Made by a program: the position numbers and the translations under genes. A DNA stretch of 64,000 nucleotides from Renibacterium sp. Lineage in GTDB: Bacteria; Actinomycetota; Actinomycetes; Actinomycetales; Micrococcaceae. The notes below the pieces were generated by a model. It was not told the DNA's origin. It saw nothing but the letters and a program-made list of their open reading frames with translations, and made no database searches. The stretch is from NCBI GenBank assembly GCA_017419405.1, contig JAFOLH010000008.1, positions 186,001-250,000 on the forward strand. The letters run 5' to 3'. Within the stretch, counting starts at the first letter, position 1. Every line of letters starts with the position of its first letter. Positions 47,901-64,000 of this stretch are shown here, one piece after another.

Positions 47901-50900
47901 GATTTCGATGCGCCCTGGCCGCAACGTCTCACTCGACGTGCTGCTCAACGACTCCGATCCGGACGGAAACGCGCTGCGCGTCGATCCGGACCGCTTCGAA
48001 GGCCCCCAGGAGATGAATCCGCGGATGAGCGAACAGGGCCGGGTGATCCTGACCTCGCCGAAAGATCCTGGCATCTACACGATGAACTACACGATCACCG
48101 ACGGCGCCGCGACGTCGAACGCCAATATCAAGATGACGGTGAGCCCGGAGGCCCCGTTGAAAGCTCCGATCGCCCGCGACGACCACGTCACGGAGCAGGA
48201 GACCCTCGGCAAAACGGCGGTAGACGTTCCGGTGCTCAAAAACGACGAGGATCCGGACGGTACCGTCGAAGAACTCAAACTCGAGGTCGATCCGGGCAAC
48301 CCGACTGCCACGGTCACCGGTACCCGCACGATCAAGGTCGATCTGGCCCAGGACGCCCAGGTGATCCCGTACACGGTCACCGATGTGGACAACAACAAGG
48401 CCACCGCGCTGATCTGGGTGCCGGGGTTGGGCAAGCAGTACCCCGCGCTCGCAGACAGCACACCGTTGGAAGTCGTCGCGGGCAACAGCGTGAGCCTGGA
48501 CCTCAACCGCTATGTCAAAGTACGCCAAGGCCGCTCGCCCCGGATCACCCAGCTCGACCGGGTGGCGCTGATCGGTGCGCCCAGCGGGGGAGCGGCGTCG
48601 GAGAGCGGCACCTCGATCGAGTACAAGTCCGATGCGGCGTTCTACGGCCTCGGCTCGATCACCTTCGAAGTGACCGATGGCAACGGGCCCAACGATCCGG
48701 AAGGCTTGAAGTCGACATTGACCGTGATGGTCGACGTCAAGCCCAACCCGAACAACAACCGGCCGCCGATGTTCAACGGGAGCACTGTCGAGGTGGCCAA
48801 GGGCGACCCCGTGGAGCTGGGGCTGGGCAATCTGGCCAAGGACCCGGACCCGGACGACAATGCCAAGCTCGCCTTCGATTTCGACGGCGACCGGCCGAAG
48901 AACTTCGATGTCTCGTTGAGCGGGCAGACCCTGAAGGTCTCCGTGAAAGGCGACGTCGCCCCGGGCAGCACCGAAGCCCTGCCGATGAAGGTCTCCGACG
49001 GCAGCAACCCGGCGGTCAAGGCGACGCTCACCCTGGTGGCGACGTCCACCAACAAACCGCTTGCCGTGGCCAACGACGACATCGTGCCGGATGCGCTCGC
49101 GGGCCGGAGCCAAGACCTGAGCGTGCTCGCCAATGACGTGAACCCGTTCCCGGAGACCGCCTTGAAGATCATCGGCGTCGCGGTCGAATCCGGCGGGGGC
49201 GCGGTGCAGACGAGCACCGACGGCAACAAAGTCACGGTGGGCACTGATGAGAACTTCAAAGGCAACGCCGTGGTCCGCTACACCGTGGCGGATGCCACCA
49301 ACGACAGTGCCCGCCAAGTCACCGGACGGGTCCGGATGAACGTCAAGGGCAAGCCGGAGGCTCCGGCGACCCCCCGGGTGAACGAGGTCAAGGACCACGC
49401 GGTGCTGCTGAACTGGGCGCCCTCGGCGGACAACGGGTCGCCGATCACCAGTTATACGGTGCGCAACTCCGGTGGAGCCGCCGAGCAGCAGTGCGCCGCC
49501 AATACCTGCCTGATCACCGGGCTCAGCAACGGCACGTCCTACACGTTCACGGTCGTGGCGAACAACGCGGTGGGTGCCTCCCCGGCGTCGCCGGCTTCCG
49601 CTCCGGCGATCCCGAACCGGGCGCCGGACACCCCGAATCCACCGGCAGCGGTGTTCGGCGACAAGCAGATCACGGTGAATTGGAGCACCCCCACCGGTGA
49701 TTTCACCCCGGTGAGCAAATTCGACCTGGAGATCTCGCCGGCCCCGAGCGGACAGAACGGGCAGAAGAGCGGGATCGCCGGGAACAGCGTGGTCTGGAGC
49801 GGGCTGAGCAACGGCACCGCGTACACCTTCCGGATCCGGGCGATCAACTCCGCCCCGGAGCCCTCGCAGTGGAGCGCGTACTCCGCCCCGGAAACGCCGG
49901 CCGGCGTGCCCGCCGCACCCGGCGCGCCGAGCGCCCAGCCCGGGCAGCGGGTGGCCGGAAACACCACGTTCTCGGTGTCCTGGAACAAGGCCGACGGCAA
50001 TGGCGACAACAATCTGAGCTACACGCTCAACGTGCTGCAGAAGGGCGCCGTGGTCCGCACGCTGCCGCCGCAGACGCCCACCACCGCAGTCGTGGAGCTG
50101 CCGTATTCCGCGGACACCTACACCTTCACGGTGACCGCGACGAACAAGGCCGGCAATTCGCCGGCCAGTGCGCCCTCGGCTCCGCAGCGTTCGGTCAGCA
50201 AGCCCGGGCAAATGGCGGCGCCGTCGATCAAGGCGGCGAACACCGGCGGCTCCGGCGGCCAGGTGCAGGTGTTCTTCACCCCGTTGGACGCGAGCCAGCT
50301 GAACGGTTCTTCGCCGAACGAAATCAGCTACTACGCCAATGTGCTCAATGGCGGCAGCGTGGTGAAGCAAGGAGTGCCGCTGGCCAAATCCGGGGACACC
50401 GTGCCCGCGGCCAATGGTTCGGACGCCTCGGTGTCGGTGTATGCGAGTTCCCGGGCGTATCCGGACGCCGGCGACGCTTCGGCGCCATCGAACCGGCTGC
50501 AGCCTTATGGCCAGCCGGGCACCCCGGCGGTGAGCGGCAACGACGGTCCGGAAGGTTCCACCAATGTGACCTTCAACTGGTCCCCGCCGGGCAACGCCGA
50601 CGTGGAGCGCTTGGAAATCAGCATCGACGGCGGCGGTTGGGAAAACGTCGGCCGGGGCAGCGGCAGCCGCACCGTGGGCGACGGCAACAACCAGACGCAC
50701 ACGATCAACGTGCGCAGCATCAACTCGGTGGGCACCGCGGGGCCGGTGGCGTCGCAATCCGCACGCACCGGGGCGCCCAAGCCGACCGGCGCGGTGATCC
50801 AGACCGCACCCGGAACGGTGAACACCTGTCTCGAGGAGCGCAGCGGAAACGGAGTGAGCAACAACTTCTCGGACCCGCCGCCGGTCTGCCGCTCGAAATG

Positions 50901-51063
50901 GCTGCCGGAGAACACCCCGGTCACCGTGGGTTGTTTCATCACCACGGGCAGCGCACGGGTCTGGTACCGGATTGACAGCCCCGCCGAATACGCCGGGCGG
51001 TTCCGTTGGGTCCGCGCGGACACCACGACGAAGCCGAATCCGGCCGGTCTGCCGGCGTGCTGA
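44938..51063 (+). CDS. Giant surface protein of bacterial Ig-like and fibronectin III repeats
   Basis: The 2041-residue protein has a short basic N-terminus and a membrane helix (about 17-36). A beta-rich N-terminal region (about 40-385) may be a propeller-like domain. About ten Ig-like repeats begin near residues 398, 494, 591, 685, 781, 882, 978, 1074, 1273 and 1372, and most carry a calcium-type loop such as NDSDPDGDLL. Five fibronectin III domains follow (about 1471-1950), and the C-terminal 85 residues carry three Cys and an SH3-like stretch. It should be anchored by its N-terminus and extend outside the cell. The ATG has GAGGAAG 12 bases upstream. MoxR, DUF58 and the transglutaminase-like genes follow, a common set in actinobacteria. 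Confidence 0.88.
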   Translation: MTLASISKSLKGRSRLITASSLTVAGAVVVAGAVIYPGFTTADVNLNDGGIWVTNRSKNLVGHLNYQSKTLDGGFTATSQGFDVLQQASNVFMDNDSGSVLAGVDVPEMALQPETKLGGSKQVTLGTGVLALVDKSKKRVWATNAATAGSFDDKNSKPLLDNLANPAAVVGFDDTVYAVDGKGGKLTTATLDANGAVQEQRTSTIEGLDTDANLQITVVGGKPVVFDASAAKLYLPGNKTVSVDQARGALLQQRGADAPFVAIGTAKGLIEQPLDGSAARTFELPATGTPAAPVQQSGCVHMAWGGANKYLRYCEGSDNQLQDVPKTVPGAQFAFRQNRDIVVLNDVTAGTVWLVNKSMVIVDNWQDLETQTKNSLDAQKDSADPNFVNTLPDRSKPNRPPNAVADEFGVRAGKTTLLPVLYNDSDPDGDLLTVEPPKEQPAIGQLQTVYGGTGLQLTVPANTGIGSGQFGYTAVDGRGGTAVAPVSIRVVPDAENSPPELKRATTLVLEQGQSMTQNILSDWLDPDGDDIFLTAATSDDGSAQLKTTPDGVLTYSDLGQGAGIKTITVTVSDSRAQTQKQLTVNVKPAGSVPPIANADFVRTTVGQEITIAPLKNDIDPSGQGLRLSSIERTNTAEISNPADNGTFTFKSNTAGQIYLVYQVSNGPQSSTGLIRVDVAEAQDQSPPIAVKDLALLPSGGSTLVDVLGNDTDPGGGVLVVKSVTAPKGAAISATVLDHNVVKIVDLRGLTGTAELSYVVSNAYGSSTGQISVLPIPKPAKLAPPVTKPDEATVRVGDVVNIPVLANDFDPNGQPLKSPQIVQAPDAASGKLFVDQDQLRFVAGEAPGTVNAVYKVYNGLDSGSPQFDSSTVTIRILPADGGRNQAPVPKALTGRVIAGSTAKIQVPLDGIDPDGDSVQLVGVEQAPKLGTALLGSNYLQYSAAASSAGTDVFSYRVRDRLGAEAVATVRVGVAPAEVQNHPPVAADDVISMRPGRNVSLDVLLNDSDPDGNALRVDPDRFEGPQEMNPRMSEQGRVILTSPKDPGIYTMNYTITDGAATSNANIKMTVSPEAPLKAPIARDDHVTEQETLGKTAVDVPVLKNDEDPDGTVEELKLEVDPGNPTATVTGTRTIKVDLAQDAQVIPYTVTDVDNNKATALIWVPGLGKQYPALADSTPLEVVAGNSVSLDLNRYVKVRQGRSPRITQLDRVALIGAPSGGAASESGTSIEYKSDAAFYGLGSITFEVTDGNGPNDPEGLKSTLTVMVDVKPNPNNNRPPMFNGSTVEVAKGDPVELGLGNLAKDPDPDDNAKLAFDFDGDRPKNFDVSLSGQTLKVSVKGDVAPGSTEALPMKVSDGSNPAVKATLTLVATSTNKPLAVANDDIVPDALAGRSQDLSVLANDVNPFPETALKIIGVAVESGGGAVQTSTDGNKVTVGTDENFKGNAVVRYTVADATNDSARQVTGRVRMNVKGKPEAPATPRVNEVKDHAVLLNWAPSADNGSPITSYTVRNSGGAAEQQCAANTCLITGLSNGTSYTFTVVANNAVGASPASPASAPAIPNRAPDTPNPPAAVFGDKQITVNWSTPTGDFTPVSKFDLEISPAPSGQNGQKSGIAGNSVVWSGLSNGTAYTFRIRAINSAPEPSQWSAYSAPETPAGVPAAPGAPSAQPGQRVAGNTTFSVSWNKADGNGDNNLSYTLNVLQKGAVVRTLPPQTPTTAVVELPYSADTYTFTVTATNKAGNSPASAPSAPQRSVSKPGQMAAPSIKAANTGGSGGQVQVFFTPLDASQLNGSSPNEISYYANVLNGGSVVKQGVPLAKSGDTVPAANGSDASVSVYASSRAYPDAGDASAPSNRLQPYGQPGTPAVSGNDGPEGSTNVTFNWSPPGNADVERLEISIDGGGWENVGRGSGSRTVGDGNNQTHTINVRSINSVGTAGPVASQSARTGAPKPTGAVIQTAPGTVNTCLEERSGNGVSNNFSDPPPVCRSKWLPENTPVTVGCFITTGSARVWYRIDSPAEYAGRFRWVRADTTTKPNPAGLPAC

Positions 51064-51163: not shown

Positions 51164-52135
51164 ATGACGATGACCGCGGAGCAGGCCAGCTGGTTTGCCG
51201 GTACTTTCGACAAACTCGTGGCGAATGTCGGCCAAGCCGTGCTGGGCAAGTCGCAGGTGGTCCGGCTGACCCTGACCGCGATGCTCGCCGAAGGCCACAT
51301 CCTGTTCGAGGATGCCCCCGGCACCGGCAAAACCATGCTCGCCCGGGCACTCGCGGCCACCGTGCAAGGCAGCAACTCACGGATCCAGTTCACCCCGGAC
51401 CTGCTGCCCTCGGACGTCACCGGGGTGACCATCTACGACCAGAAAACCCAGAAGTTCGAATTCCACAAGGGCCCGATCTTCGCCACCATCGTGCTCGCCG
51501 ACGAAATCAACCGGGCCTCGCCGAAGACCCAGTCCGCGCTGCTCGAAGTGATGGAGGAGTCCCGGGTGACCGTGGACGGCGCCAGTTACGAGGCCGGCCG
51601 GCCGTTCATGGTGTTGGCCACGCAGAACCCGATCGAACAAGCCGGCACCTACCGGCTGCCGGAAGCGCAGTTGGACCGGTTCCTGATCAAGACTTCGATC
51701 GGCTACCCGGACCACGCCTCCACGGTGCAGTTGCTCTCCGGCTCCGGCCAGCGCGACCGGACCTCGACGCTGCAAGCGATCATCACCACCTCCGCGGTCG
51801 CCGAAATGGCGGATCTGGCCGCCACCACGCATACCGACCCGGCAGTGCTGGAATACATTTCACGGCTCTGCGAAGAGACCCGGAATGCCTCGGAGACCCG
51901 GCTGGGGGTCAGCGTCCGCGGGGCCATCGCGATGGTGCGCGCGGCGAAAGTCTGGGCGGCATCGCAAGGCCGCAACTTCGTGCTCCCGGACGATGTCAAA
52001 GAGCTGGCGCCGGTGGTCTGGACGCACCGTTTCGTGATGGACCCGGAAGCGGAGTTCGCCGGAGCCACTCCCGAGGTGGTGCTCAAACGCGTGCTGGCCG
52101 ACGTCGCAGCGCCGCAACAGCGTGCCAGCGCCTGA
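51164..52135 (+). CDS. MoxR-family AAA ATPase
   Basis: MoxR ATPases act as chaperones that help mature or insert partner complexes, often with von Willebrand or DUF58 proteins. The 323 residues have Walker A in EDAPGTGKTMLARAL, Walker B in VLADEINRASPKTQSALL, sensor 1 in ATQNPIEQAGTYRLPEAQLD, and the C-terminal lid. The ATG at 51164 follows GAGGAACC; a second ATG lies at 51170. It is 100 bases after the giant surface gene, with an AT-rich patch (about 51105-51150) that may hold a promoter. It precedes the DUF58 gene by 28 bases. Confidence 0.93.
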   Translation: MTMTAEQASWFAGTFDKLVANVGQAVLGKSQVVRLTLTAMLAEGHILFEDAPGTGKTMLARALAATVQGSNSRIQFTPDLLPSDVTGVTIYDQKTQKFEFHKGPIFATIVLADEINRASPKTQSALLEVMEESRVTVDGASYEAGRPFMVLATQNPIEQAGTYRLPEAQLDRFLIKTSIGYPDHASTVQLLSGSGQRDRTSTLQAIITTSAVAEMADLAATTHTDPAVLEYISRLCEETRNASETRLGVSVRGAIAMVRAAKVWAASQGRNFVLPDDVKELAPVVWTHRFVMDPEAEFAGATPEVVLKRVLADVAAPQQRASA

Positions 52136-52163
52136 GCCGGCGCGGAGGAGATCCGACCGGACC

Positions 52164-53480
52164 ATGTCACTCCGTTCCCCAGCCGCGATGAAGCGGCCGT
52201 TCCGGCGCAACGGCAGCCGCACCCGATTGCACCCGGCATCGATTTTCGCCGAGGCCGGCCGGGTCGGCGGAATGCTCTTGCTCCCGTGGTGGGCCAAGGC
52301 GCGGGCCTGGCTCGGCAGATACCTGGGCCCGGTGTTCGGCCCGGTCAGCCCTCTGGGCTGGATGCTGCTCGTGTTGGTGCTGCTGCTATGGGGCTTCGGC
52401 GGGGTCTTCGGTTGGGCGGAGGCCAAAACCGTGGCTTTGCTGGGCAGCGTGCTGCTGCTCGCCGCCGTCGGCTTCGTGCTCGGCCGATCCGCCTACGGCG
52501 TGGAACTCGACCTGGCCCGGACCCGGGTCGCGGTGGGCGAGCATGCGGTGGGCAGCGTTTCGGTCACCAACACCTCGAACCGGCCGTTGTTGCCGGCCAC
52601 CCTGGAATTGCCGGTGGGCGGCAACCTGGCCTCCTTCCAGTTGCCCCGGATGAAGCCGGGCCACGTGCACGAAGACCTGTTCACGATCCCGACTGCGAAA
52701 CGCGCCGTGATCGTGGTGGGTCCGGTGCGCTCGGTCCGCGCCGACCCGTTGCGCCTGCTCCGGAGGCAGGTGTACTGGACCGAGGCCACGGACCTGTTCG
52801 TGCATCCGCGGACCACGCCGCTGATCGGTTCGGCCGCCGGATTCCTCAAAGATCTGGAGGGCATGCCGACGACCGAGCTCTCCAGTGCAGACGTGTCGTT
52901 CCACGCGCTGCGCGACTACATCCCGGGCGACGACCGCCGGCACATCCACTGGAAGACCACCGCGCGGACCGCCAAGCTCATGGTCCGGCAATTCGAAGAG
53001 ACCCGCCGGGCGCACATCGCGGTGGCCTTGAGCATCAACACCTCGGAGTACCAGGCCCCGGAAGACCTCGAGCTGGCGATCTCCACCGCGGCGTCGATCG
53101 GCCGGCAGGCAATCCGGGAACAACGAGAGTTGAGCGTGCATGACCAACGCGGCCCGCTGCGCTGCGCGACCGGCCGGACGCTGCTGGACGATATGACCCG
53201 GATCGAAGGCAGCAGCAAGCTCGACGGCACCGCGGCGCTCGCCCGGAGCGTCGCCGACGCGGTGCCGGGTGCGTCCGTGGTGTTCTTCGTCGTCGGCTCC
53301 TTGGTCAGTCCCGCGCAGCTGCGGGCCGCGGCTGCGGCGATCCCGCCCGGCATCCGCTGCTTCGCCATCCGTTGCCTGACCGGCGCCGGGGCCAGCCGGA
53401 ACAACATCGCCGACCTCGCGGTGCTCACCCTGGGCGATTTGGCGGATCTCGCCGCGGTGCTCCGGAAGGCCGCGGCATGA
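52164..53480 (+). CDS. DUF58 domain-containing membrane protein
   Basis: The 438-residue protein has two membrane helices (about residues 60-80 and 88-108) and then the DUF58 signature FHALRDYIPGDDRRHIHWKT followed by RTAKLMVRQFEE. DUF58 proteins, with a von Willebrand-like fold, are typical partners of MoxR ATPases; their role is unknown. The ATG at 52164 follows GGAGGAG at 13 bases; an ATG at 52188 is an alternative. It overlaps the transglutaminase-like gene by 4 bases (ATGA). Confidence 0.9.
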   Translation: MSLRSPAAMKRPFRRNGSRTRLHPASIFAEAGRVGGMLLLPWWAKARAWLGRYLGPVFGPVSPLGWMLLVLVLLLWGFGGVFGWAEAKTVALLGSVLLLAAVGFVLGRSAYGVELDLARTRVAVGEHAVGSVSVTNTSNRPLLPATLELPVGGNLASFQLPRMKPGHVHEDLFTIPTAKRAVIVVGPVRSVRADPLRLLRRQVYWTEATDLFVHPRTTPLIGSAAGFLKDLEGMPTTELSSADVSFHALRDYIPGDDRRHIHWKTTARTAKLMVRQFEETRRAHIAVALSINTSEYQAPEDLELAISTAASIGRQAIREQRELSVHDQRGPLRCATGRTLLDDMTRIEGSSKLDGTAALARSVADAVPGASVVFFVVGSLVSPAQLRAAAAAIPPGIRCFAIRCLTGAGASRNNIADLAVLTLGDLADLAAVLRKAAA

Positions 53481-55933
53481 GCCGGATGTCGTTGTTCTCC
53501 GGCCGGCCGGCCTGGCATTTCGTACTCGATGCCGGGGTACTGTTCCTGTTGCTCGGACTGGCGGTGCTCGGTTTCGCGCCGACCTTCGGAGCCGACCCCT
53601 ATTATTTGGTCGCCGGGTTGGGCGGGGTGCTGCTGGGCTTGGTGATCGCCGCCGCCGGGGCGCATTGGCGTTGGGGACTGCTGGTGATGACCGCGGTGGT
53701 GCTGCTCGGCTACCTGCTCTTCGGCAATGCGCTGGCCGCACCGGGCGAATCGTTGTTCGGTTTCTTCCCCACTGGCGGATCGCTGCGCGGGCTGCTCCTC
53801 GGCGTGGTCTTCGGCTGGAAACAATTGCTGACCATCGCGGCGCCGGTCGGCACTTCGGTGGACGTGCTGGTGGTACCTTTCCTGTCCGCGTTGTTCTGCT
53901 CGGTGCTCGCCGGGACTCTAGCCTGGCGGGTGCGCCGGGCCTATTGGACCATGCTCCCGGTGCTCGCCCTGTTCATCGCGAGCATCGTCTTCGGCACGGA
54001 CGAGCCGTTCTTGCCGACGCTGCGCGGGATCTTGCTCGGCATCGCCGCGATCTGCTGGCTGGCCTACCGGAGGGAGCTGCTCAGCCGGGGGATGGTGCAC
54101 TCCGGCCGCGCGGGAGCCATGGACCGGCCGGAAGGTGCAGCACCGCCACTTGCCGCAGCCGCCGCGAACCGCTCCCGTCGTTTGCTGGCCGGGGCCGTGG
54201 TGGTGGTTTTGGCCGGCGGCCTGACGGCTGCGGCGATGCCGATGTTTCGTGCCGGGGAGGACCGCAAGGTGCTGCGCGATGTGGTGATCCCGCCCTTGGA
54301 TCCGCACAATCTACCCTCGCCACTCACCGACTTCCGCCGCTACGTCGGCGACGAGGCGGAGCAGACCTTGTTCTCGGTCTCCGGCCTGCCCCGGGACGCT
54401 CGGGTCCGGCTGGCTGCCCTGGACTCCTATGACGGCATCGTCTTCAACGTGGATTCGGCGAGTTCCGGGGCGTTCGCCCCGATCGGCGACCCCAAATCCG
54501 CGAACCGCGCCACGGAGGGGGACACCAGCACGCTGGGATTCCAGATCGAAGACTACGCCGGGGCCTACATCCCCGGGGCCAGCGCGATCCGCTCGCTGCA
54601 GTACCAAGCGGCCGACGGCGGGCAAGGGCTGCTGTACCTGAACCAGGATTCGGACACCGCGGTGAAGCTGGACGGCGTCCGGAACAACGACGCCTACCGG
54701 GTCAATGTGGCGTTCCCGCCGAAGCGCGATGAGAAGCAACTGGAGGCGGCCGGCTTCGCCGATCTCAGCATGCCGAAGTTGGCGAACGTGCCCCAGGCGG
54801 TCGGGGCCAAAGCGGTGCAGATCGCCGGCGACAAGACTTCCGACTACGCCAAGGTGAAGGCGCTCGCCGACTACTTCCGGCTGGCCGGAAAATACAGCAA
54901 CGGGATCAAAGGCCAGGTGGCCAGTCTGCCCGGCCACAGCGCGGCCCGGATCGCGAAGTTCCTCTCCGGCAAGGAAATCGTCGGCGACGATGAACAGTAT
55001 GCGGTGACCATGGCCTTGATGGCGCGGTACCTGGGGATTCCGGCCCGGGTAGTGATGGGTTTCTATCCGGACCCCAAGGGCGAGCTCAACGGGGCGCCGA
55101 ATGTGCAGATCAAGGGGTCCGATGTGCACGCCTGGGTCGAAGCGGATTTCAGCGGGATCGGCTGGGTGCCCTTCGATCCGACGCCGGACAAAGACCATGT
55201 GCCCAACCCGCCGGATCCGCAAAACGCGTCCTCGCCCAAACCCCAGGTCCTGCAGCCGCCGCCTCCGCCGCAGGAACAAGCCGAGCTGCCGCCGGACAGC
55301 TCGCCCGACGCACTGGACAACGACAAGAAAAAGCAGGACTTCTGGGCAGTGCTGGGCCAGATCCTGACGGTACTGGGCTTGGCCGCGATTCCGGTGGCGG
55401 TGATCGTGCTCCCCTTGTCGGCAATCGCCCTGGTCAAGCGCCGGCGCCGGAAAAGGCGATTCAGCGAAGGTGCTCCGGCCCAGCGGGTGGGCGGTGGCTG
55501 GAGCGAACTGCTGGCTTTGGCCACCGACCTCGGCGCTGCGGTCAATCCGAAACAGACCCGGCGGGAAACCGCGGGCACACTGGCGGGCGCGTTCCCGGCC
55601 AGCGGCGGAAGCACGACCGCACTGGCCGAGCGCGCGGACTCAGCGATTTTCGGCGTCGGCGAACCGAGCGAAGCCGAGGTCGCCGCCTTCTGGTCCGAGG
55701 TGGACGGATCGCTCGAGAAGATGAATGAATCAGTGGGATTCTGGCATCGGATGCGGGCCCGATTCTCGCCGCGTTCGCTGCTCGGCGACCTGAGCCTGGC
55801 CATGGCGCAACGGCCCGGGTCCGCAGGCTATTTCCGCAAGAAACCCCAGTCGCAACCGGTTGAGCCGCCGGTCTTCGGCCAGGGGAGCGCCGCGCAGACC
55901 GGCCACCCGGCGTCGGAACGGGGCAACGAATGA
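53477..55933 (+). CDS. Transglutaminase-like membrane protein, catalytic Cys missing
   Basis: The 818-residue protein has about seven membrane helices in the first third. An extracellular region with a transglutaminase-core follows (about 480-575): the helix-loop EIVGDDEQYAVTMALMARYL, GIPARVVMGF, the His segment SDVHAWVEADF and the Asp segment FDPTP. The usual core is GxCEQFA; here the Cys position is Asp (GDDEQYA), so the Cys-His-Asp triad is broken while His and Asp remain. A Pro-rich linker, a further helix and a polar tail follow. It may be a structural or binding relative. It overlaps both neighbours by 4 bases. Confidence 0.88.
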   Translation: MSRMSLFSGRPAWHFVLDAGVLFLLLGLAVLGFAPTFGADPYYLVAGLGGVLLGLVIAAAGAHWRWGLLVMTAVVLLGYLLFGNALAAPGESLFGFFPTGGSLRGLLLGVVFGWKQLLTIAAPVGTSVDVLVVPFLSALFCSVLAGTLAWRVRRAYWTMLPVLALFIASIVFGTDEPFLPTLRGILLGIAAICWLAYRRELLSRGMVHSGRAGAMDRPEGAAPPLAAAAANRSRRLLAGAVVVVLAGGLTAAAMPMFRAGEDRKVLRDVVIPPLDPHNLPSPLTDFRRYVGDEAEQTLFSVSGLPRDARVRLAALDSYDGIVFNVDSASSGAFAPIGDPKSANRATEGDTSTLGFQIEDYAGAYIPGASAIRSLQYQAADGGQGLLYLNQDSDTAVKLDGVRNNDAYRVNVAFPPKRDEKQLEAAGFADLSMPKLANVPQAVGAKAVQIAGDKTSDYAKVKALADYFRLAGKYSNGIKGQVASLPGHSAARIAKFLSGKEIVGDDEQYAVTMALMARYLGIPARVVMGFYPDPKGELNGAPNVQIKGSDVHAWVEADFSGIGWVPFDPTPDKDHVPNPPDPQNASSPKPQVLQPPPPPQEQAELPPDSSPDALDNDKKKQDFWAVLGQILTVLGLAAIPVAVIVLPLSAIALVKRRRRKRRFSEGAPAQRVGGGWSELLALATDLGAAVNPKQTRRETAGTLAGAFPASGGSTTALAERADSAIFGVGEPSEAEVAAFWSEVDGSLEKMNESVGFWHRMRARFSPRSLLGDLSLAMAQRPGSAGYFRKKPQSQPVEPPVFGQGSAAQTGHPASERGNE

Positions 55934-57315
55934 ACCCGGGCACCTCGAATTGCCGGAATTGCGGTGCCGCGCTGCCGCCCGGAGCGTCGTTCTGCACCTT
56001 GTGCGGTGCCGCCGTCTACAACCGGGCCGGCCGGACGGCGCCGGCCGCAGCTTCGGAGCCGAGTGCGCCGGAAAACCCCCGCAAGGTCCAGATTCCGGGT
56101 ATCATCCCGGTTACGCCCTTCAGCCGAGGGCCGGTCGTGGCACCGAAAATCGACGACGGAGAAGACATGGCAGCGCGGTTGGACCTGGTCAATGCCGGCG
56201 CCGGGAAACGGCTCGCTGCGAAGCTGCTCGACATGGTGGCCCCGGCCATCGGTTTCGCGATCGGATCCGGGGTCGGTGCGACGACCATTGTCAGCACCCG
56301 GGTCAACGCCCAGGTGATCACCTTGGACTTGTTCTGGTTCAGCGTGTGGACCGGAGCCGCAGCTTTGCTGGCCCTGGCTTATTGGATTGTGCTTTGGGGC
56401 TGGGAAGCGAGGACTGGGAAAACCATCGGCAATCTGCTGCTGGGCATCCGGACCACCGGGATGCAGGGTTTCGCCGCGGGCTGGTTGGCGATCCTGGTCC
56501 GGAACGTGATCATCACGATCGGCTTCGGGCTGGCCTTCGTGGGCGGTGTGCTGGTGCTGATTTCAAATCTCTGGGACCGGAACGGGCAACGCCAGAGTTG
56601 GCCGGACAAAGCCGCGCACACCCTGGTCTTCGATGTGAAGGCCGGCCGGGATCCGCTCACCAGCGGCGGAATCGACGGGCCTTCGTCGTTCGCCCCGGTC
56701 GAATTGCCGCCGATGCTGCCGGTGCAGTCTCCGGTGGCCGGGACGGCTGCGCCCGGCCTGCCGACCTCCGCAGCGCCGCCGTCGGCCGGGATTCCGGGCT
56801 TCGAACCGGCCGAACCGGCCCCGGGCCGGCGGCACGACCCGAATCAGTGGCAGCCCCCGGCCAGCCCCGGGGTCCGGCCGGAAACGGTCCATCCGGATGA
56901 AGCGGCGGGTGAAACCAGATACCGCTCCGCAGCGCAACCGGATCCGGTCCCGGCGGCCGTCGATCCGGCCCCGGCGGTGCAACGGCCGAGCGTGCGGATG
57001 CAGTTCGACGACGGTCGCGAAGTCCGGCTGGCCGGAGCGGCGCTGATCGGACGCAATCCCTCTGGATACGATGGGGAAGTGATTGAACAGCTCATCGATG
57101 TGCCGGATCCTTCGCGCTCCGTGTCCAAAACGCATGTCCACGTCCGGGCGAGCTCCGAAGGGCTGTGGGTCACGGACCGGAATTCGACCAATGGCAGTGC
57201 GCTCAGCGGACCCGACGGAGTTCGCCGGCCACTGGTCGCCGGCAGCCCGGAACTGGCCGGCTTCGGTGCCACCGTGCACTTCGGCGACCGCAGCTTCCTA
57301 GTGGCCCGCGCATGA
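55930..57315 (+). CDS. Zinc-ribbon, RDD and FHA domain protein
   Basis: The 461-residue protein has an N-terminal zinc ribbon (Cys8, Cys11, Cys22, Cys25 in CRNCGA...CTLCGA), and an RDD membrane domain (about residues 85-235) with several helices and GNLLLGIRTTGMQGFAAGW. A Pro/Ala-rich linker follows. The C-terminal FHA domain (about 355-455) has ALIGRNPSG, SVSKTHVHV and NSTNGSAL. The FHA domain recognises phosphothreonine peptides. The adjacent kinase and phosphatase suggest it is a phospho-regulated membrane scaffold. It overlaps its neighbours by 4 bases. Confidence 0.9.
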   Translation: MNPGTSNCRNCGAALPPGASFCTLCGAAVYNRAGRTAPAAASEPSAPENPRKVQIPGIIPVTPFSRGPVVAPKIDDGEDMAARLDLVNAGAGKRLAAKLLDMVAPAIGFAIGSGVGATTIVSTRVNAQVITLDLFWFSVWTGAAALLALAYWIVLWGWEARTGKTIGNLLLGIRTTGMQGFAAGWLAILVRNVIITIGFGLAFVGGVLVLISNLWDRNGQRQSWPDKAAHTLVFDVKAGRDPLTSGGIDGPSSFAPVELPPMLPVQSPVAGTAAPGLPTSAAPPSAGIPGFEPAEPAPGRRHDPNQWQPPASPGVRPETVHPDEAAGETRYRSAAQPDPVPAAVDPAPAVQRPSVRMQFDDGREVRLAGAALIGRNPSGYDGEVIEQLIDVPDPSRSVSKTHVHVRASSEGLWVTDRNSTNGSALSGPDGVRRPLVAGSPELAGFGATVHFGDRSFLVARA

Positions 57316-58319
57316 ACGAGCGACCTGCCACGCCGGCGGAGGCAGCGGCACCGCATCGGATCACGCTCAGCTGGGGATCGAACACGGATCGCGGTTTGCG
57401 CCGGGAACTGAACGAAGATTCGTTCCTGGCTGCGGATCCGATCTTCGCGGTGGCCGACGGGATGGGCGGACACGAAGCCGGCGAAGTGGCCTCGCGCGAA
57501 TGCATCCGGGCGTTGCGCGAGGCTGCCGCGCTCGCCCCGGGATCGCGGACCGCCAGCGCCTTGGACGTGCAGCAGGCCCTGCTCCAAGCCGATGCCAAGA
57601 TCCGCGAGCTCACCGACTCCCGAGCCGGCACCACGGCAACCGGAGTGGTCCTGGTCGAGGAGGCGGGGAATCCCTACTGGCTGGTTTTCAACGTCGGGGA
57701 TTCCCGGACCTACCGGCTGAGCCAGGGGAAATTCGAACAGATCAGCGTGGACCATTCGGAGGTCCAGGAACTCGTCGACGCCGGGCACATCACCAGCGAC
57801 CAGGCGCTGGTGCACCCGCGCAGGCATGTGGTGACCCGGGCCCTGGGCACCGGAGACGATACCGAGGCCGACTACTGGCTGATCCCGGTGGAAGACGGCG
57901 ACCGCTATCTGGTCTGCTCGGACGGATTGACCGGGGAGCTTTCCGATCTGCAGATATCCCAGGTGGTCGCCAGCGTGGCGCAGCCGCAGGCTGCCGTGGA
58001 CGCCCTGCTCGAAGCGGCACTGCGATCAGGCGGCCGGGACAATGTCACGGTCCTGATCGTCGACGCCGAAGACGTGGTGCAGGCCGCGGACCGGTTGACC
58101 ACGGCACCCCGTCCGCTCGCCGAGGAAGACACCTTGCCGGGCGGTCTGCCGGTGGTGACCGAGGTCCAGCGGGCCCCTGCTGCCGAGAGTCCTGCTGCGG
58201 AGAGTCCCGCGGCCGGCCCGGTGCCGGACTCCGCCGAGCCGGGAGCGGACGCCCTTGGCGTCATCGAAGACCTTTTGGCCGAATCCCGGGGAACGGAGGG
58301 CGATCGTGACGGAGCTTAG
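57312..58319 (+). CDS. PP2C-type serine/threonine protein phosphatase
   Basis: The 335-residue protein has the PPM fold with metal-binding motifs: LNEDSFLA, VADGMGGHEAGEVAS, FNVGDSRTYRLSQG, VCSDGLTGEL and GGRDNVTVLIVDAED. It is cytosolic, with no helix, and ends in a repetitive Ala/Pro/Glu tail (ESPAAESPAAGP). It should reverse phosphorylation by the kinase at 59862 on FHA ligands. The ATG at 57312 overlaps the previous stop by 4 bases; the frame is open upstream, but the overlap start fits. Its stop overlaps the next gene by 14 bases. Confidence 0.93.
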   Translation: MNERPATPAEAAAPHRITLSWGSNTDRGLRRELNEDSFLAADPIFAVADGMGGHEAGEVASRECIRALREAAALAPGSRTASALDVQQALLQADAKIRELTDSRAGTTATGVVLVEEAGNPYWLVFNVGDSRTYRLSQGKFEQISVDHSEVQELVDAGHITSDQALVHPRRHVVTRALGTGDDTEADYWLIPVEDGDRYLVCSDGLTGELSDLQISQVVASVAQPQAAVDALLEAALRSGGRDNVTVLIVDAEDVVQAADRLTTAPRPLAEEDTLPGGLPVVTEVQRAPAAESPAAESPAAGPVPDSAEPGADALGVIEDLLAESRGTEGDRDGA

Positions 58320-59865
58320 CTACGGCCCCGGGAATTGGCTCGGTGTGGTGCGCGCCAATACCGTGATCGTGCTCGATGAACGGACCGGGACCCGGCTGAT
58401 CGCGGAGCTTTGGGATTTTCTGGCCGGGAGACCGCAGGTCGACGAAGTGCTCAACCGGGTCACCTCCGGATTCGGCACCGAGCTGACCGGAATGCCGGCT
58501 TTCGGGATCATCACCTTCGGCGAGCGCCCCCGGGCGATCCTGCGCGGGGAGATGACGCTGACCGCGAGCGCCGGAAACACCCGGTTGGAGGTCTCCGGGC
58601 GCGAAGTGACCACCTGGAGCGAACGGTCGTTGCCGGACGCGGAAGTCTTCGAACTCCGCTTGGCGGACGACGGCGCGGAACCGGTGCTGCCCTTGTCCGA
58701 AGGCGTGGTGCGGCTCTCCAGGCTGCTGGTCGGCACTGCCCCGCAGACCGATCAGCCGGAACCCGATTTGAGCCACACCTTGGTGAGCAGCGAGTTCACC
58801 GAATCCGCGCCCGCGCCCGATTGGCCGGCGGTTGAGCCGGAACCGGCAGCCGAACCTGACGCTGAGCCGGCTGTGCTGAATCCGGCCGTGCCGGAACCCG
58901 TTTCAGAGCCGGTTGCGGAGCCTGCCGGCGAGCCGCCGAGCAGCCCGGCCGCAAGCGAACCGCTGGAGAGCACTTCGAGTTACGACCACCTTTGGGACCG
59001 GACGATCGCCCGGTCCGTGGAGGACGCGGCCATCCGGGTCCCCGGAGAAGCGGACGACGTCGAACCGCCGGCACCGGCCCGCAATGCCGACCCGGAGGGT
59101 GCAGTCCAGCCGGCCGGCACCGGAGCGGCCACCATCGCGGAGGCCGCCGCACCGGTCCCCGCCGCGCCGCTTCCGGCGGTACCGTTTCCGGCGGTACCGC
59201 CGGCCGGAGGCGGCTTGATCGAGTCCGTGCCGTGGCTCAGCCCCGCATCGCCCGCCGAACCCGAGACCGCCGCCGAACCCGAGACCGCCGGCGAGCCGGA
59301 ACCGGGCGACCCGGACCACGACGGGCACACGGTGCTGCGCAGCGGTCTGGCCCCGGCAGCGCTGCCCGAGCGGGCGCCGGAGCCGGGCGCTGGTCCGTCG
59401 GCCACCGGCCCGATGGTGCTCGCCAGGCTCTGCCCGGCGGGACACGCCAACCCGCCGACGTCCGCGCGCTGCTCGGTCTGCGGCCAGGCCGTGGCCGGGG
59501 ATGCCCGGCAAGTCCGCCGTCCGGTGTTGGGCCGGATGCGGATTTCGTCCGGTGAGGTGGTCGACTTGGACCGTTCGCTCGTCGTCGGCCGCCAGCCGTC
59601 GGTGTCCCGGGTGCACGGCGACGGGATGCCGAAGCTGGTCCAAGTAGGCAGCCGGGCCGGGGACATCTCGCGATCGCATGTCGAGGTCCGGTTGGAAGGC
59701 TGGGACGTGATCCTGGTGGATCTCAAGGCGACCAACGGCACGGTGCTGGTGCGCGAAGGACAGCTGCCGCGGCGGCTGGGCCAAGGCGAGCAGGCGATGC
59801 TGCTCGATGGGGACATCGCGGAACTGGGCGAGGACGTTTCACTGCGTTTCGAGGGGCTCCGGTGA
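58306..59865 (+). CDS. FHA-domain protein with Pro/Glu/Ala-rich linker
   Basis: The 519-residue protein has an N-terminal region (about 1-150) with a beta-rich fold, and a long low-complexity linker (about 150-370) rich in Glu, Pro and Ala. A CxxxH...CxxC zinc-ribbon-like motif (CPAGH near residue 376 to CSVCGQ) follows. The C-terminal FHA domain (about 420-515) has SLVVGRQPSVS, DISRSHVEVRLE and KATNGTVL. Tandem 18-bp repeats in the linker DNA (59254-59289) code EP-ET-AA. The GTG at 58306 is preceded by GGAGGG at 5 bases. It is cytosolic and probably links the kinase to the secretion ATPase. Confidence 0.88.
   Translation: MTELSYGPGNWLGVVRANTVIVLDERTGTRLIAELWDFLAGRPQVDEVLNRVTSGFGTELTGMPAFGIITFGERPRAILRGEMTLTASAGNTRLEVSGREVTTWSERSLPDAEVFELRLADDGAEPVLPLSEGVVRLSRLLVGTAPQTDQPEPDLSHTLVSSEFTESAPAPDWPAVEPEPAAEPDAEPAVLNPAVPEPVSEPVAEPAGEPPSSPAASEPLESTSSYDHLWDRTIARSVEDAAIRVPGEADDVEPPAPARNADPEGAVQPAGTGAATIAEAAAPVPAAPLPAVPFPAVPPAGGGLIESVPWLSPASPAEPETAAEPETAGEPEPGDPDHDGHTVLRSGLAPAALPERAPEPGAGPSATGPMVLARLCPAGHANPPTSARCSVCGQAVAGDARQVRRPVLGRMRISSGEVVDLDRSLVVGRQPSVSRVHGDGMPKLVQVGSRAGDISRSHVEVRLEGWDVILVDLKATNGTVLVREGQLPRRLGQGEQAMLLDGDIAELGEDVSLRFEGLR
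59254..59289 (+). repeat. Two exact 18-bp tandem repeats in the FHA linker
   Basis: The unit GCCGAACCCGAGACCGCC is at 59254-59271 and 59272-59289, in frame, coding Ala-Glu-Pro-Glu-Thr-Ala twice. A shorter repeat of TTTCCGGCGGTACCG occurs nearby (about 59168-59200). Both make a flexible linker. Confidence 0.8.
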
Positions 59866-61589
59866 GCCAGAAACGGCCACCCGCGCCGCCGCCGGACATC
59901 CCCGGATACAACTACCTGGCGTTGCTGGGTTCCGGGGGGTTCTCCGATGTCTTCCTGTACGAACAGGACCGGCCACGCCGCAAAGTCGCGGTCAAGGTGC
60001 TGATTTCCGATTTGAAAACGGAGAGCGCCCGCCGGCGTTTCGAATCCGAAGCGAATTTGATGGCCCAGCTGTCCAGCCACCCCTACATCGTGACGATCTA
60101 CGAAGCCGAGGTCACCGCAGGCGGGCATTCGTATCTCGCCATGGAGTACTGTTCCCGGCCGAGCCTCGATGTCAGGTACCGGCGCGCCCGGTTCAGCGTC
60201 GACGAAGTCCTGGCCGTGGGCGTCCAGGTCGCTTCCGCCGTGGAAACCGCGCATCGGGCCGGAATCGCGCACCGGGACATCAAACCGGCGAACATCCTGG
60301 TCACCGATTACAACCGCCCGGCGCTGACCGACTTCGGGATTTCCGGGACCATGGACGCCACTGCCGACGAAGACGCCGGAATGTCGATTCCCTGGTCCCC
60401 GCCGGAATCGTTCACCGGGCAGAACGCCGACGGCGTGAAAGTCGATGTCTGGGCGCTCGGTGCCACGCTCTACACCCTGTTGGCCGGGCGCTCGCCTTTT
60501 GTGCTCCCCGGCGCGGACAACTCGCAACGCGAATTGATCGCGCGGATCGGCACCGCCGCCTTGCCGCCGCTGGGCCGGGCCGATGTCCCGGAATCGCTCG
60601 AACTGGTGCTGGCCACCGCGATGGCGAAATCCCCGGAATCACGCTATGCCTCAGCCCAGGATTTCGCCCGCGCACTGCAACGGATCCAGAACGAATTGGG
60701 CTTTTCAGTCACCCCGTTCGAGGTGCAGGAAGAAACGCCGCACGAAGAGTCCGCACCGCCCGACGGCGAAGCCGAAGAAACCCGGGTACGCAACATCATC
60801 TCGATCGATCCGGACAGCACCACCGGGAGCAGCAAATCCAGATTTCCGGCGATGGACCGCAGCGTGCCCCTGGCCGCGCCCGACGCCGGGACGGGACCCG
60901 GTGCAGCTGCCGGCACGGTGCAGCGCCCCGACGATTTCACCGTGCCCGGCGCCGCTGCGCCGCAGAGCAGTCCGGTGCCGCAGGTCAGTTCGGTACCGGG
61001 GGTGAATCCGGCCCGCGCCGACCAGGGGTTCAGTACCGCGCCGCGTGGTTGGACCCCGGGAAGCGGGACTCCGGAGGCGCCGGAAGATTCGCTCGCCGCC
61101 ACGGTGGCCAGGCCGCGGCCGATCGAGCCCGAAAGCCTGCGGCCGGGCGGCAAGGCCAAAGGCAAACCCAGCGCCGGATCGCTCTGGGCCGGAGCGATCA
61201 GCGTCCTGGTGCTGGTCGCAGCGGTGGTGCTGGTGCTGGTTCTGGTCAACGCCAATTCCGGGGCGGCGCCTTCCGCGACGCCTACCGCCGGCAGCAAAAC
61301 CCCGCCACCCCCGGTGGATTTGGGCCTGCTGGTGCCGCAAGTCGCGGATCTGACCGCGGTCGCCGGCGACGGCGGGGCGAACTGGAGTTGGCGGAATCCG
61401 GACCCGCAGCCCGGCGACAGTTTCCAGTGGGCTCCGGTGGACGCGATCAAAACCGGCGACTTCAAAGGCACTGGAACCCCGAACGTCTTCGTCGCGAACA
61501 ATGCGCAGAACGTTTCCTGTATTTCGGTGATCCTGGTCCGGGCCAACGGCAAGGCCTCGGACGAGGAGAAGAAATGTTTCCCGCAATGA
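59862..61589 (+). CDS. Serine/threonine protein kinase, transmembrane, PknB-like catalytic domain
   Basis: The 575-residue protein has a kinase domain (about 15-280): LLGSGGFSDVF (glycine loop), VAVKVL (Lys45), HRDIKPANIL (catalytic Asp139) and DFGIS (Asp157). IPWSPPE replaces the usual APE. A Ser/Pro/Ala linker follows, then one membrane helix (about 441-465) and an extracellular C-terminal region with WSWRNPDPQPGDSFQW and two Cys. It has no PASTA repeats, so it is not a standard PknB sensor. It would phosphorylate Thr residues recognised by the locus FHA domains. The GTG overlaps the previous stop by 4 bases. Confidence 0.92.
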   Translation: MSQKRPPAPPPDIPGYNYLALLGSGGFSDVFLYEQDRPRRKVAVKVLISDLKTESARRRFESEANLMAQLSSHPYIVTIYEAEVTAGGHSYLAMEYCSRPSLDVRYRRARFSVDEVLAVGVQVASAVETAHRAGIAHRDIKPANILVTDYNRPALTDFGISGTMDATADEDAGMSIPWSPPESFTGQNADGVKVDVWALGATLYTLLAGRSPFVLPGADNSQRELIARIGTAALPPLGRADVPESLELVLATAMAKSPESRYASAQDFARALQRIQNELGFSVTPFEVQEETPHEESAPPDGEAEETRVRNIISIDPDSTTGSSKSRFPAMDRSVPLAAPDAGTGPGAAAGTVQRPDDFTVPGAAAPQSSPVPQVSSVPGVNPARADQGFSTAPRGWTPGSGTPEAPEDSLAATVARPRPIEPESLRPGGKAKGKPSAGSLWAGAISVLVLVAAVVLVLVLVNANSGAAPSATPTAGSKTPPPPVDLGLLVPQVADLTAVAGDGGANWSWRNPDPQPGDSFQWAPVDAIKTGDFKGTGTPNVFVANNAQNVSCISVILVRANGKASDEEKKCFPQ

Positions 61590-61649
61590 GCGCCGGGACC
61601 AGCCGGGGGACCGGCTGTCGAGCAGGAGCGACCCGCGCAGGAGGTTGGC

Positions 61650-62360
61650 ATGGCCGGATCTGAACTCAGCATCGATTTCTGCGGCGAATGGTACGAGCCG
61701 GCGAAGACCGAGGCGTTCAACATCGGCCGGGAGGGCGACCTGGAGGTCGACGACAACCCTTACCTGCATCGGAAGTTCTTGCAGATCGCGCACTACGACG
61801 GGATCTGGTGGCTCTCCAACGTGGGCAGCATCCTGTCCGCGACGGTGGCCGATGCGGGCGGCGGCATGCAGGCCTGGTTGGCGCCCGGGGCCCGGATCCC
61901 GCTGGTGTTCGGCCAGACCAACGTGGTCTTCACCGCCGGGCCGACCACCTATGACTTCTCCGTGCACCTGAAATCCCCGTCCTTCAAATACCAGAGCAAC
62001 GAGTTCGACGCGGTGGGCGACACCACGATCGGTCCGGTGGTCTTCACGGATTCGCAGAAAGCGATCATCGTGGCCCTCGCCGAACCGATGCTGCGCCGCG
62101 AGGGCACCGGGTTCGCCGCGATCCCGTCTTCGGCCGAGGCCGCGCGGAAACTGGGCTGGGCCCTGACCAGGTTCAACCGGAAGCTGGACAACGTCTGCGA
62201 CAAGTTGGACCGGGTGGGCGTGGTGGGCCTGCGCGGCGGCGGCGGGAAGCTGGCCACCAACCGCCGGGCGCGCCTGGTGGAGCACGCGATCACCTCGCAT
62301 CTGGTGACCCCGGACGATTTGCCCCTGCTGGAGACGATGAAAGGCCTCGACGACGCATGA
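61650..62360 (+). CDS. Small FHA-like protein with C-terminal helical DNA-binding-like region
   Basis: The 236-residue protein starts with an FHA-like fold (about residues 5-105: IGREGDLEVDDNPYLHRKFL, WLSNVG in place of NSxNG). The conserved Ser of FHA domains is replaced, so phosphate binding is unsure. The C-terminal part (about 130-225) is helical and resembles a winged-helix: AEAARKLGWALTRFNRKLDN and VEHAITSHLV. The ATG at 61650 follows AGGAGG at 5 bases. It overlaps the EssC-type gene by 4 bases, suggesting a partner of that ATPase. Confidence 0.8.
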   Translation: MAGSELSIDFCGEWYEPAKTEAFNIGREGDLEVDDNPYLHRKFLQIAHYDGIWWLSNVGSILSATVADAGGGMQAWLAPGARIPLVFGQTNVVFTAGPTTYDFSVHLKSPSFKYQSNEFDAVGDTTIGPVVFTDSQKAIIVALAEPMLRREGTGFAAIPSSAEAARKLGWALTRFNRKLDNVCDKLDRVGVVGLRGGGGKLATNRRARLVEHAITSHLVTPDDLPLLETMKGLDDA

Positions 62361-64000
62361 GGATCAGATTGACGCTCCGGCGGGATCCCGAGCCGAAGGA
62401 CCTGGCGGTCACCGTCGACGGCCTGGCCACCGTCGGGGACATCGCGGCGGAACTCTTCGCGGCCGATCCGAACCGCCGGGGCACTGCGATTCCGGAAAAC
62501 CTCACCCTGCAGGTCGACCAGGCACCGATGGCCGGCGGCAATGTGCAAGGGCGCGCATTGGACCCGGCGGGGAACCTGCTGGAGTCCGGGTTGCGGCCCG
62601 GGTCCACGGTTTCACTCACCCGGTTGAGCCGGGATTTCACCGCGCCCGGGCAGGACCGCGGCCCGGCTGCGGCGACTTTGCGGGTGCTCGACGGGCCCGA
62701 TGCCGGCCGGGAGTTCTCGCTGCCGCTGGGCACCAGCTACATCGGCCGCGACCGCAACGCGGACATCCGGCTCAGCGACCCGATGATGTCCAAACGGCAT
62801 GCCCGGATCACCGTGGCGGACAGCATCGAGATCGCAGACACGAACTCCGCGAACGGCTTGGTCATGGACGGCTCGCCGGTGGGCCGGGCGGTGCTGGGCC
62901 CCAACGACGAGATCAGCTTGGGCGACACCAGGATCAGCGTGCTCGCGATCGGCCGGACCGGCGGCGACGCCTTGGCCGGTCCGTTGGTCGAATTCAACCG
63001 TTCGCCCCGGGTGGTGCCGCATTTCGGACCGGCCGAGCAGAAGATCCCGGAAGGCCCGCAGCGGCCGCAGCCGCAACGGTTCCCCGCGGTGATGCTGGTC
63101 TCGCCGTTGTTGATGGGCGGCATCATGTTCGCGGTGACGCAGAGCATCTTCAGCCTGGTCTTCGTGATCATGATGCCCTTGATGCTGATGGCGACCTGGC
63201 TCGATCAGCGGATGCAGGCGAAGAAACTCCTGGCCCTGGGCTCGGAGCAGTTTTACGGATCGCTGGAGGTCTTCCACGAACAAGTGGGCACCTTGCAGCA
63301 GGTGGAGCGCGCGGTCCGCAGCGCGGAGAGCCCCTCGGTCGCCGAGACCGTGGACGCGATCTACAAACTCGGTCCGTTGCTCTGGACGCACCGGCCGGAG
63401 CACCCGGCCTTCCTTTCCCTGCGGTTCGGGCTGGGCCGGCAACCGAGCCGGATCCCGATCAATGCGCCGACCATGAACAACACGGTTCCCGAATTCCAAA
63501 AAATCATCGACGACACCGCGAACGAGTACGCCTTCATCGAGGCGGTCCCGGTGGTTTCCCAGTTGCGCAGCGCCGGGGCCCTGGGCTTGGCCGGACGCCG
63601 GGAAGTGCTCGACGACGTGGCCCGGGGCATCGTGCTCCAAGCGGTGGGCCTGCATTCGCCGTCGGAACTCGTGGTCGCCGCGCTGGTCGGCACCGAGTCG
63701 CGGGAACGCTGGAACTGGTTGCAGTGGCTGCCGCACGTGGGCTCCCCGCATTCGCCGTTGGCCGGAGACCACTTGGCTGCCGGATCGGGGGCCGGAGCGA
63801 TCCTGCTGGCCAAACTCGAGGACCTCCTGGTCGCCCGGGGCGGAAACCTGGCGGCGAATTCGGCCGCCCTGCGCGGGCCGGTGGAGAATCCAGCCAAAGC
63901 CCGGCCGGGGGAGCGCACCGCCGCCGATCCGGGGAAGCGGCTTCCGGCCCCGGTTCTGCCTTCGGTGCTGGTGCTCATCGAGGACGACGCCAAGGTCGAT
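62357..64000 (+). CDS. FHA-containing FtsK/EssC-type ATPase, 5' part (type VII-like secretion motor), runs off window
   Basis: The open frame is 548 codons long and continues past the window end, so the ATPase motifs are not visible. The first 90 residues form a beta-rich ubiquitin/YukD-like domain as in EssC. An FHA domain follows (about 105-190) with SYIGRDRNADIRLSD, MSKRHARIT and NSANGLVM. Two adjacent membrane helices (about 241-282) and the start of the FtsK-like cytosolic region follow (QVERAVRSAESPSVAETV). EssC and EccC proteins drive type VII secretion of WXG100 proteins. It has the intact FHA Ser/Asn residues. It overlaps the previous gene by 4 bases. Confidence 0.82.
   Translation, partial: MRIRLTLRRDPEPKDLAVTVDGLATVGDIAAELFAADPNRRGTAIPENLTLQVDQAPMAGGNVQGRALDPAGNLLESGLRPGSTVSLTRLSRDFTAPGQDRGPAAATLRVLDGPDAGREFSLPLGTSYIGRDRNADIRLSDPMMSKRHARITVADSIEIADTNSANGLVMDGSPVGRAVLGPNDEISLGDTRISVLAIGRTGGDALAGPLVEFNRSPRVVPHFGPAEQKIPEGPQRPQPQRFPAVMLVSPLLMGGIMFAVTQSIFSLVFVIMMPLMLMATWLDQRMQAKKLLALGSEQFYGSLEVFHEQVGTLQQVERAVRSAESPSVAETVDAIYKLGPLLWTHRPEHPAFLSLRFGLGRQPSRIPINAPTMNNTVPEFQKIIDDTANEYAFIEAVPVVSQLRSAGALGLAGRREVLDDVARGIVLQAVGLHSPSELVVAALVGTESRERWNWLQWLPHVGSPHSPLAGDHLAAGSGAGAILLAKLEDLLVARGGNLAANSAALRGPVENPAKARPGERTAADPGKRLPAPVLPSVLVLIEDDAKVD

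Follow-up and report, generated by a model that had tools for sequence, protein, structure and literature searches.

A putative phosphorylation-wired type VII secretion variant of Micrococcales that shares a gene module with the bifidobacterial PFNA operon

The window analysed here, a 64,000-nucleotide stretch of the 3.76-Mb genome of Renibacterium sp. (G000:C4:186001–250000), carries on its plus strand a gene cluster that leads from a giant surface protein to a secretion ATPase reaching past the window's end. With a probability of about 0.55, we read this locus as a Micrococcales variant of the type VII secretion system (T7SS) that would be wired by Ser/Thr phosphorylation, the PFNA operon of bifidobacteria being this module with no secretion genes beside it. 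The kinship with PFNA is the strongest claim that the locus allows; the locus itself is most probably a type VII variant gated by phosphorylation, with a logic akin to that of the published T7SSd. It is conserved and real, and is new as a variant, not in kind.

The secretion motor is encoded by an EssC-like gene whose N-terminal part lies at 62357–64000 (Pfam, NCBIfam, hydropathy) and which ends at contig position C4:252835 (window-equivalent 66835), giving a product of 1492 amino acids (aa). A preliminary description of this DNA had assigned the gene to the EssC type, naming the lack of an FtsK ATPase domain in its remainder as grounds for refutation; FtsK_SpoIIIE domains were found (Pfam, 2.2e-54), together with three Walker A-like motifs, two hydrophobic transmembrane (TM) segments by hydropathy and, as had been proposed, an FHA domain (residues 109–193). 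Homology to EssC/EccC is clear, though under the equivalog cut-offs of NCBIfam (EssC TIGR03928, 519.6 bits, cut-off 778; EccCa, 345 bits, cut-off 509). Approximately 160 bases 3′ of the ATPase gene, where WXG100 genes had been expected, lies a WXG100-like open reading frame (ORF) of 93 aa with a WNG motif (window-equivalent 66998–67270; TIGR03930, E 6.3e-5, 23.1 bits, cut-off 44.9; PF06013, 19.9 bits, cut-off 27.3), followed by ligA and then genes of other kinds. The mycosin-like gene sought past position 64000 did not appear: among the window ORFs and the nine downstream ORFs scanned there was no mycosin, EccD or EccE, and no genome-wide search was aimed at these three. Neither the ubiquitin-like protein YukD/EsaB nor the pseudokinase YukC/EssB gave a match in the genome at E 0.01, with positive B. 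subtilis controls for both; membership in T7SSb was ruled out because YukC and YukD were not found. EccB likewise gave no match in the genome, but the control genomes gave none either. Beyond this ORF, PF06013 picks up a single sequence in the genome at E 0.01, a 550-codon ORF on contig C16 whose N-terminus holds a WXG100 domain (G000:C16:14464–16113; L207:130–1779, minus strand), a candidate substrate of the locus.

Upstream of the motor, the cluster encodes one Ser/Thr protein kinase (59862–61589; Pfam Pkinase, 1.6e-41) and one PP2C-type Ser/Thr phosphatase (57312–58319; Pfam PP2C_2/PP2C; NCBIfam Stp1-like, 197 bits, cut-off 230), in agreement with the preliminary description. The kinase has one hydrophobic TM segment (residues 444–462) and a short extracytoplasmic part by hydropathy, and its catalytic residues are present in 124–125 of 126 relatives. 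It carries a juxtamembrane motif, EETRVR, at residues 305–310; the corresponding class of kinase-tail motif occurs at 92 sites, spread over 64 of the 127 kinases compared (125 of them distinct), whereas shuffled sequences gave 7.4 sites on average and at most 16. FHA domains had been assigned to four proteins, and this stood for three of them, which keep the residues that bind phosphothreonine (pThr): the ATPase, in which they are retained in 49–52 of 53 EssC orthologues, and two proteins that we call RDD-FHA and ZnFHA. RDD-FHA (55930–57315) combines a zinc ribbon, an RDD membrane domain and a C-terminal FHA domain; Pfam finds Zn_Ribbon_1 and RDD and no FHA, which is visible in the sequence as a motif, with the pThr-binding residues in 96–99 of 99 rows (99 found out of 102). 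ZnFHA (58306–59865; Pfam FHA), in which we found zinc-ribbon-like Cys pairs by eye and no TM segment, has them in 96–98 of 98 rows. These three FHA domains thus appear to be pThr-competent and conserved across relatives. The fourth protein, FHAx (61650–62360), shows FHA by predicted fold only (AlphaFold, fold searches) and has lost the usual pThr-binding residues; with a C-terminal GerE/LuxR-like helix-turn-helix (HTH), it is a predicted DNA-binding regulator. Transcription factors of the EmbR type, which join FHA to HTH, are regulated by Ser/Thr kinases; FHAx differs from them in domain order, in its GerE-like HTH and in the loss of the pThr residues.

The remaining members of the cluster are a giant Ig/FN3 surface protein of 2041 aa (44938–51063), a MoxR AAA+ ATPase (51164–52135; Pfam AAA_3, 3.5e-62), a DUF58 protein whose N-terminus holds hydrophobic, TM-like segments (52122–53480; Pfam, hydropathy) and a transglutaminase-like protein, TGM (53477–55933). 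All genes named earlier are present, on the plus strand; TGM and the link to PFNA were missing from that description, and the giant gene begins earlier, at 44938. From MoxR to the last gene, seven of the eight junctions overlap by 4 or 14 bases (start codons as chosen here), which upholds the overlaps of 4 to 14 bases reported for most neighbours, and the 60-base gap between the kinase and FHAx genes is the sole non-overlapping junction. Judged by TGM, the closest named loci belong to Pseudarthrobacter, Paenarthrobacter and Arthrobacter, at ~50% identity.

This arrangement recurs among 198 genomes of the order, 55 of which, the genome under study included, hold an EssC orthologue (at least 800 bits, our own cut-off). 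Leaving out that genome and G030, in which the gene is split between contigs, we compared 53 EssC stretches, six of them shorter than 19 kb, and searched them for partners with the window proteins and with profiles built from their relatives. The RDD/FHA profile matched at 42 of the 53 loci, FHAx at 34, the kinase and zinc-FHA at 33 each, MoxR, DUF58 and TGM at 32 each (the complete triad at 32), PP2C at 31 and the giant at 29. All eight partners accompany EssC at 21 loci and six or more at 30, and seven control loci of more distant ATPases had no partners, a result to be taken with some reserve. In the whole sample FHAx occurs in 74 genomes and DUF58 relatives in 116 (E 1e-15); 47 genomes have both FHAx and EssC, 8 have EssC alone, 27 have FHAx alone and 116 have neither of the two (Fisher p 3.3e-18, not corrected for relatedness). 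Where both are present, they lie at most 400 bases apart in 29 genomes, within 20 kb in 9, and farther apart or on different contigs in 9. A quick tree of 40 ATPases (midpoint root, no bootstrap) places the window EssC type in one clade (29 rows, SH-aLRT 100), outside which fall the T7SSd-like ATPases of two genomes of family f4, a family taken as Bifidobacteriaceae because its 17 best DUF58 matches are all Bifidobacterium. Conservation in relatives thus supports the earlier proposal of a distinct actinobacterial variant.

We then compared the cluster with PFNA. The PFNA core is described as pkb2, fn3, aaa-atp, duf58 and tgm, with prpC, a hypothetical gene and fha added in some species, and Pkb2 as phosphorylating the PFNA MoxR ATPase (PMC8430577); the operon is called unique to, or found only in, bifidobacteria (PMC10688814, PMC8430577), and its resemblance to a mycobacterial moxR operon has been remarked upon (PMC12067865). 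For each of the five core genes the window holds a relative, and the giant matches in its N-terminal 450 aa and its Ig and FN3 regions; in both systems TGM lacks the catalytic Cys, and PP2C and FHA genes are present. The two differ in that the kinase gene lies downstream of PP2C and zinc-FHA in the window, whereas it comes first in PFNA, and in that the window adds RDD-FHA, zinc-FHA, the FHA-HTH protein, EssC and WXG100.

Named genomes were scanned with an alignment of DUF58 proteins that has an f4 sequence at its head. The best 80 of 586 confirmed matches, which are no census, fall into 19 loci of Bifidobacterium and 61 others; among the 61 is L182, a short contig of a Bifidobacteriaceae metagenome-assembled genome. 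Relatives of the kinase, giant, MoxR, DUF58 and TGM are present at all 19 Bifidobacterium loci and PP2C at 14, while FHAx, zinc-FHA and EssC occur at none of the 19 within the stretch. At the 61 other loci we found FHAx at 47 and EssC at 45, the 10-kb flank in many cases covering no more than the beginning of EssC. Among these best 80 matches, the cluster is seen in genera such as Arthrobacter, Paenarthrobacter, Pseudarthrobacter, Isoptericola, Promicromonospora, Cellulosimicrobium, Microbacterium, Herbiconiux and Georgenia. In B. saguini (L136), genes for the kinase, a 1997-codon giant, MoxR, DUF58, TGM, PP2C, an unnamed ORF and an FHA protein follow one another in the eight-gene PFNA order given in PMC8430577; its tgm is split into two overlapping ORFs (L136:11206–13721). 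The order pkb2-fn3-aaa-atp-duf58-tgm is found in Bifidobacterium and in the family f9 genomes of L107–L110, and not in the window. An early guess that f9 is Bifidobacterium was dropped on G+C content. The phrase 'type VII secretion' has 0 occurrences in PMC8430577, PMC6803598, PMC10688814 and PMC12607495, and no publication linking PFNA to type VII secretion was found in the open-access literature searched (supplements excluded).

Pfam and hydropathy give the giant protein an N-terminal hydrophobic segment (residues 17–35), nine Big_9 stretches, cadherin-like domains and three FN3 stretches, and a simple hydropathy scan shows no C-terminal TM segment. With phmmer, its N-terminal 450 aa match all 19 named Bifidobacterium loci (97–121 bits in eight) and its FN3 region 18 of them, and its C-terminal 280 aa match none; the protein is thus related to the PFNA FN3 protein beyond its repeats. 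Relatives of the giant occur at 58 of the 61 other named loci and at 19 of 19 in Bifidobacterium (among the best 80 of 586 matches).

TGM, a membrane protein of TgpA_N, transglutaminase-core and DUF4129 regions (Pfam), has D505 at the position of the catalytic Cys when aligned to TgpA (6g49). None of 128 aligned cluster relatives has Cys there, two more being gapped at this position, and 63 of the 128 keep the catalytic His; TGM is thus a predicted pseudo-enzyme that has lost its nucleophile, and within this cluster type the loss is exceptionless. MoxR-DUF58-transglutaminase triads of the TgpA type have the same three-gene order as the window. Loss of the Cys is not limited to this cluster: five triads have neither EssC nor a giant nor a kinase in the stretch, and three of them carry Ala (L212, L213, L215), the other two Cys (L222, L223). 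At L209, L220 and L221, divergent EssC genes of other branches lie near a MoxR-DUF58-TGM triad, and the TGM catalytic position holds Pro, Ser or Arg.

Of the described secretion systems, T7SSd resembles the locus in its logic; its genes are TsdA, TsdC, TsdD, TsdH and TsdI (Garrett et al. 2024, PMC11217815). The two share WXG100, a pThr-competent FHA domain on the ATPase, a transmembrane kinase and a giant Ig-like protein, and no ubiquitin-like gene was found in either (PMC11217815). Unlike T7SSd, the window also encodes PP2C, MoxR, DUF58, TGM and three additional proteins of FHA fold, and MoxR, DUF58 and transglutaminase are absent from the main text of PMC11217815; TsdI is described with a signal peptide and a C-terminal TM segment, whereas the window giant has no visible C-terminal TM segment. 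T7SSe of Bacillota (PMC11217815) likewise has a kinase, PP2C, a separate FHA protein, an ATPase with pThr-binding FHA and a giant. What sets it apart is a second WXG100, a DUF6382-FHA protein and the ubiquitin-like TseB, whereas no YukD match was found here. In family f4, the genomes of L117 and L118 (G138) and of L119 (G082) carry a T7SSd-like locus of kinase, 1799-codon Ig-like giant, ATPase and FHA gene; the T7SSd assignment of L117 and L119 comes from gene content alone, as our ATPase comparison does not include the TsdC of O. uli. In G138, ~14 kb separate this locus from a PFNA operon, whose distance to the ATPase is 21 kb, and the G+C content over two 20-kb stretches is 57% for the T7SSd-like locus versus 66% for PFNA, suggesting separate arrival. 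The idea that T7SSd and PFNA are one system was dropped, since G138 carries both as separate loci.

It is rather improbable that the window holds a plain T7SSd as published for Olsenella and Bifidobacterium, with the remaining genes as accidental neighbours. The shared components and the missing YukD speak for this, but the extra genes are conserved, the ATPases of the separate T7SSd-like loci in G138 and G082 fall in another clade than that of the window, and the giant of the f4 loci (L117/L119) has no phmmer match to the window giant. We also weighed an assembly role, in which MoxR, DUF58 and the pseudo-transglutaminase build a giant adhesin together with the kinase, EssC exports or anchors it, and WXG100 is an accessory. 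The near-constant presence of the giant at the named loci fits such a role, as does WXG100 being found at only 24 of the 53 EssC loci, yet Bifidobacterium has the giant without adjacent EssC, and ordinary Sec export would be a simpler route because the giant has an N-terminal hydrophobic segment; we hold this explanation to be rather improbable as well.

Several observations weigh against the phosphorylation-wired secretion reading, and some of them favour two independent neighbours instead, a PFNA-type phospho-signalling and envelope module and an EssC/WXG100 core that share a site and perhaps transcripts without functional coupling. No partner of the eight lies in the stretch at 14 of the 53 EssC loci; 27 of the 74 FHAx genomes lack an EssC orthologue of at least 800 bits, in 9 of the 47 genomes with both genes EssC is remote from FHAx or stands on a different contig, and G002 (L097) has relatives of FHAx, kinase and PP2C in a genome without an EssC match at E 1e-20, from all of which it follows that the module can exist without adjacent EssC. 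The triad also lies near divergent EssC genes outside this EssC clade, WXG100 is present at under half of the EssC loci and below curated cut-offs in the window, and the kinase-tail motif was picked after the window proteins had been inspected, with related sequences counted repeatedly. FHAx has DUF58 close by and EssC far away in G031, G047, G119, G083 and G167, and none of the 19 Bifidobacterium loci has EssC within the stretch. However, G167 has a second triad beside EssC (L073), FHAx and EssC overlap by four bases in the window and mostly stay close elsewhere, their co-occurrence is strong, and the ATPase itself bears a pThr-competent FHA domain; we consider independent neighbours unlikely.

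If the locus is a phosphorylation-wired secretion variant, its transmembrane kinase would sense an envelope cue and phosphorylate its own tail, at EETRVR, and its partners. The FHA domains of EssC and of the RDD and zinc-ribbon proteins would bind to pThr and so bring the ATPase together in an active complex, which PP2C would release, while the FHA-HTH protein would report the state to transcription. MoxR and DUF58 may act as an assembly chaperone for an envelope part made of the pseudo-transglutaminase and the giant, the latter perhaps a scaffold, conduit or adhesin. The PFNA operon probably began in a secretion machine and not as a host sensor, because the secretion motor and WXG100 share a cluster with PFNA genes. 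A more extended proposal, to which we give slightly less than an even chance, is that PFNA descends from a phosphorylation-gated type VII locus of actinobacteria, with the giant FN3 protein as first an envelope component and TGM as a dead enzyme kept for scaffolding, and that the locus represents a T7SS subtype so far undescribed, in which control acts on assembly through the ATPase FHA domain and on transcription through the FHA-HTH protein.

Going by their genus names, the actinobacteria with the locus are mostly of host-free habitat. The literature cited here treats PFNA as a bifidobacterial host-immunity sensor and proposes a eukaryotic origin for its FN3 domains; our comparison offers an ancestral FN3 role that needs no host, as well as an opportunity to test, in genera that have laboratory strains, whether Thr phosphorylation gates secretion. 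It also joins the T7SS variants of 2024 to the bifidobacterial PFNA work, two literatures without mutual mention in the papers compared. Immediately 5′ of the giant gene, and like it on the plus strand, lies an adenylate/guanylate cyclase-like gene (window 43450–44766; Pfam Guanylate_cyc).

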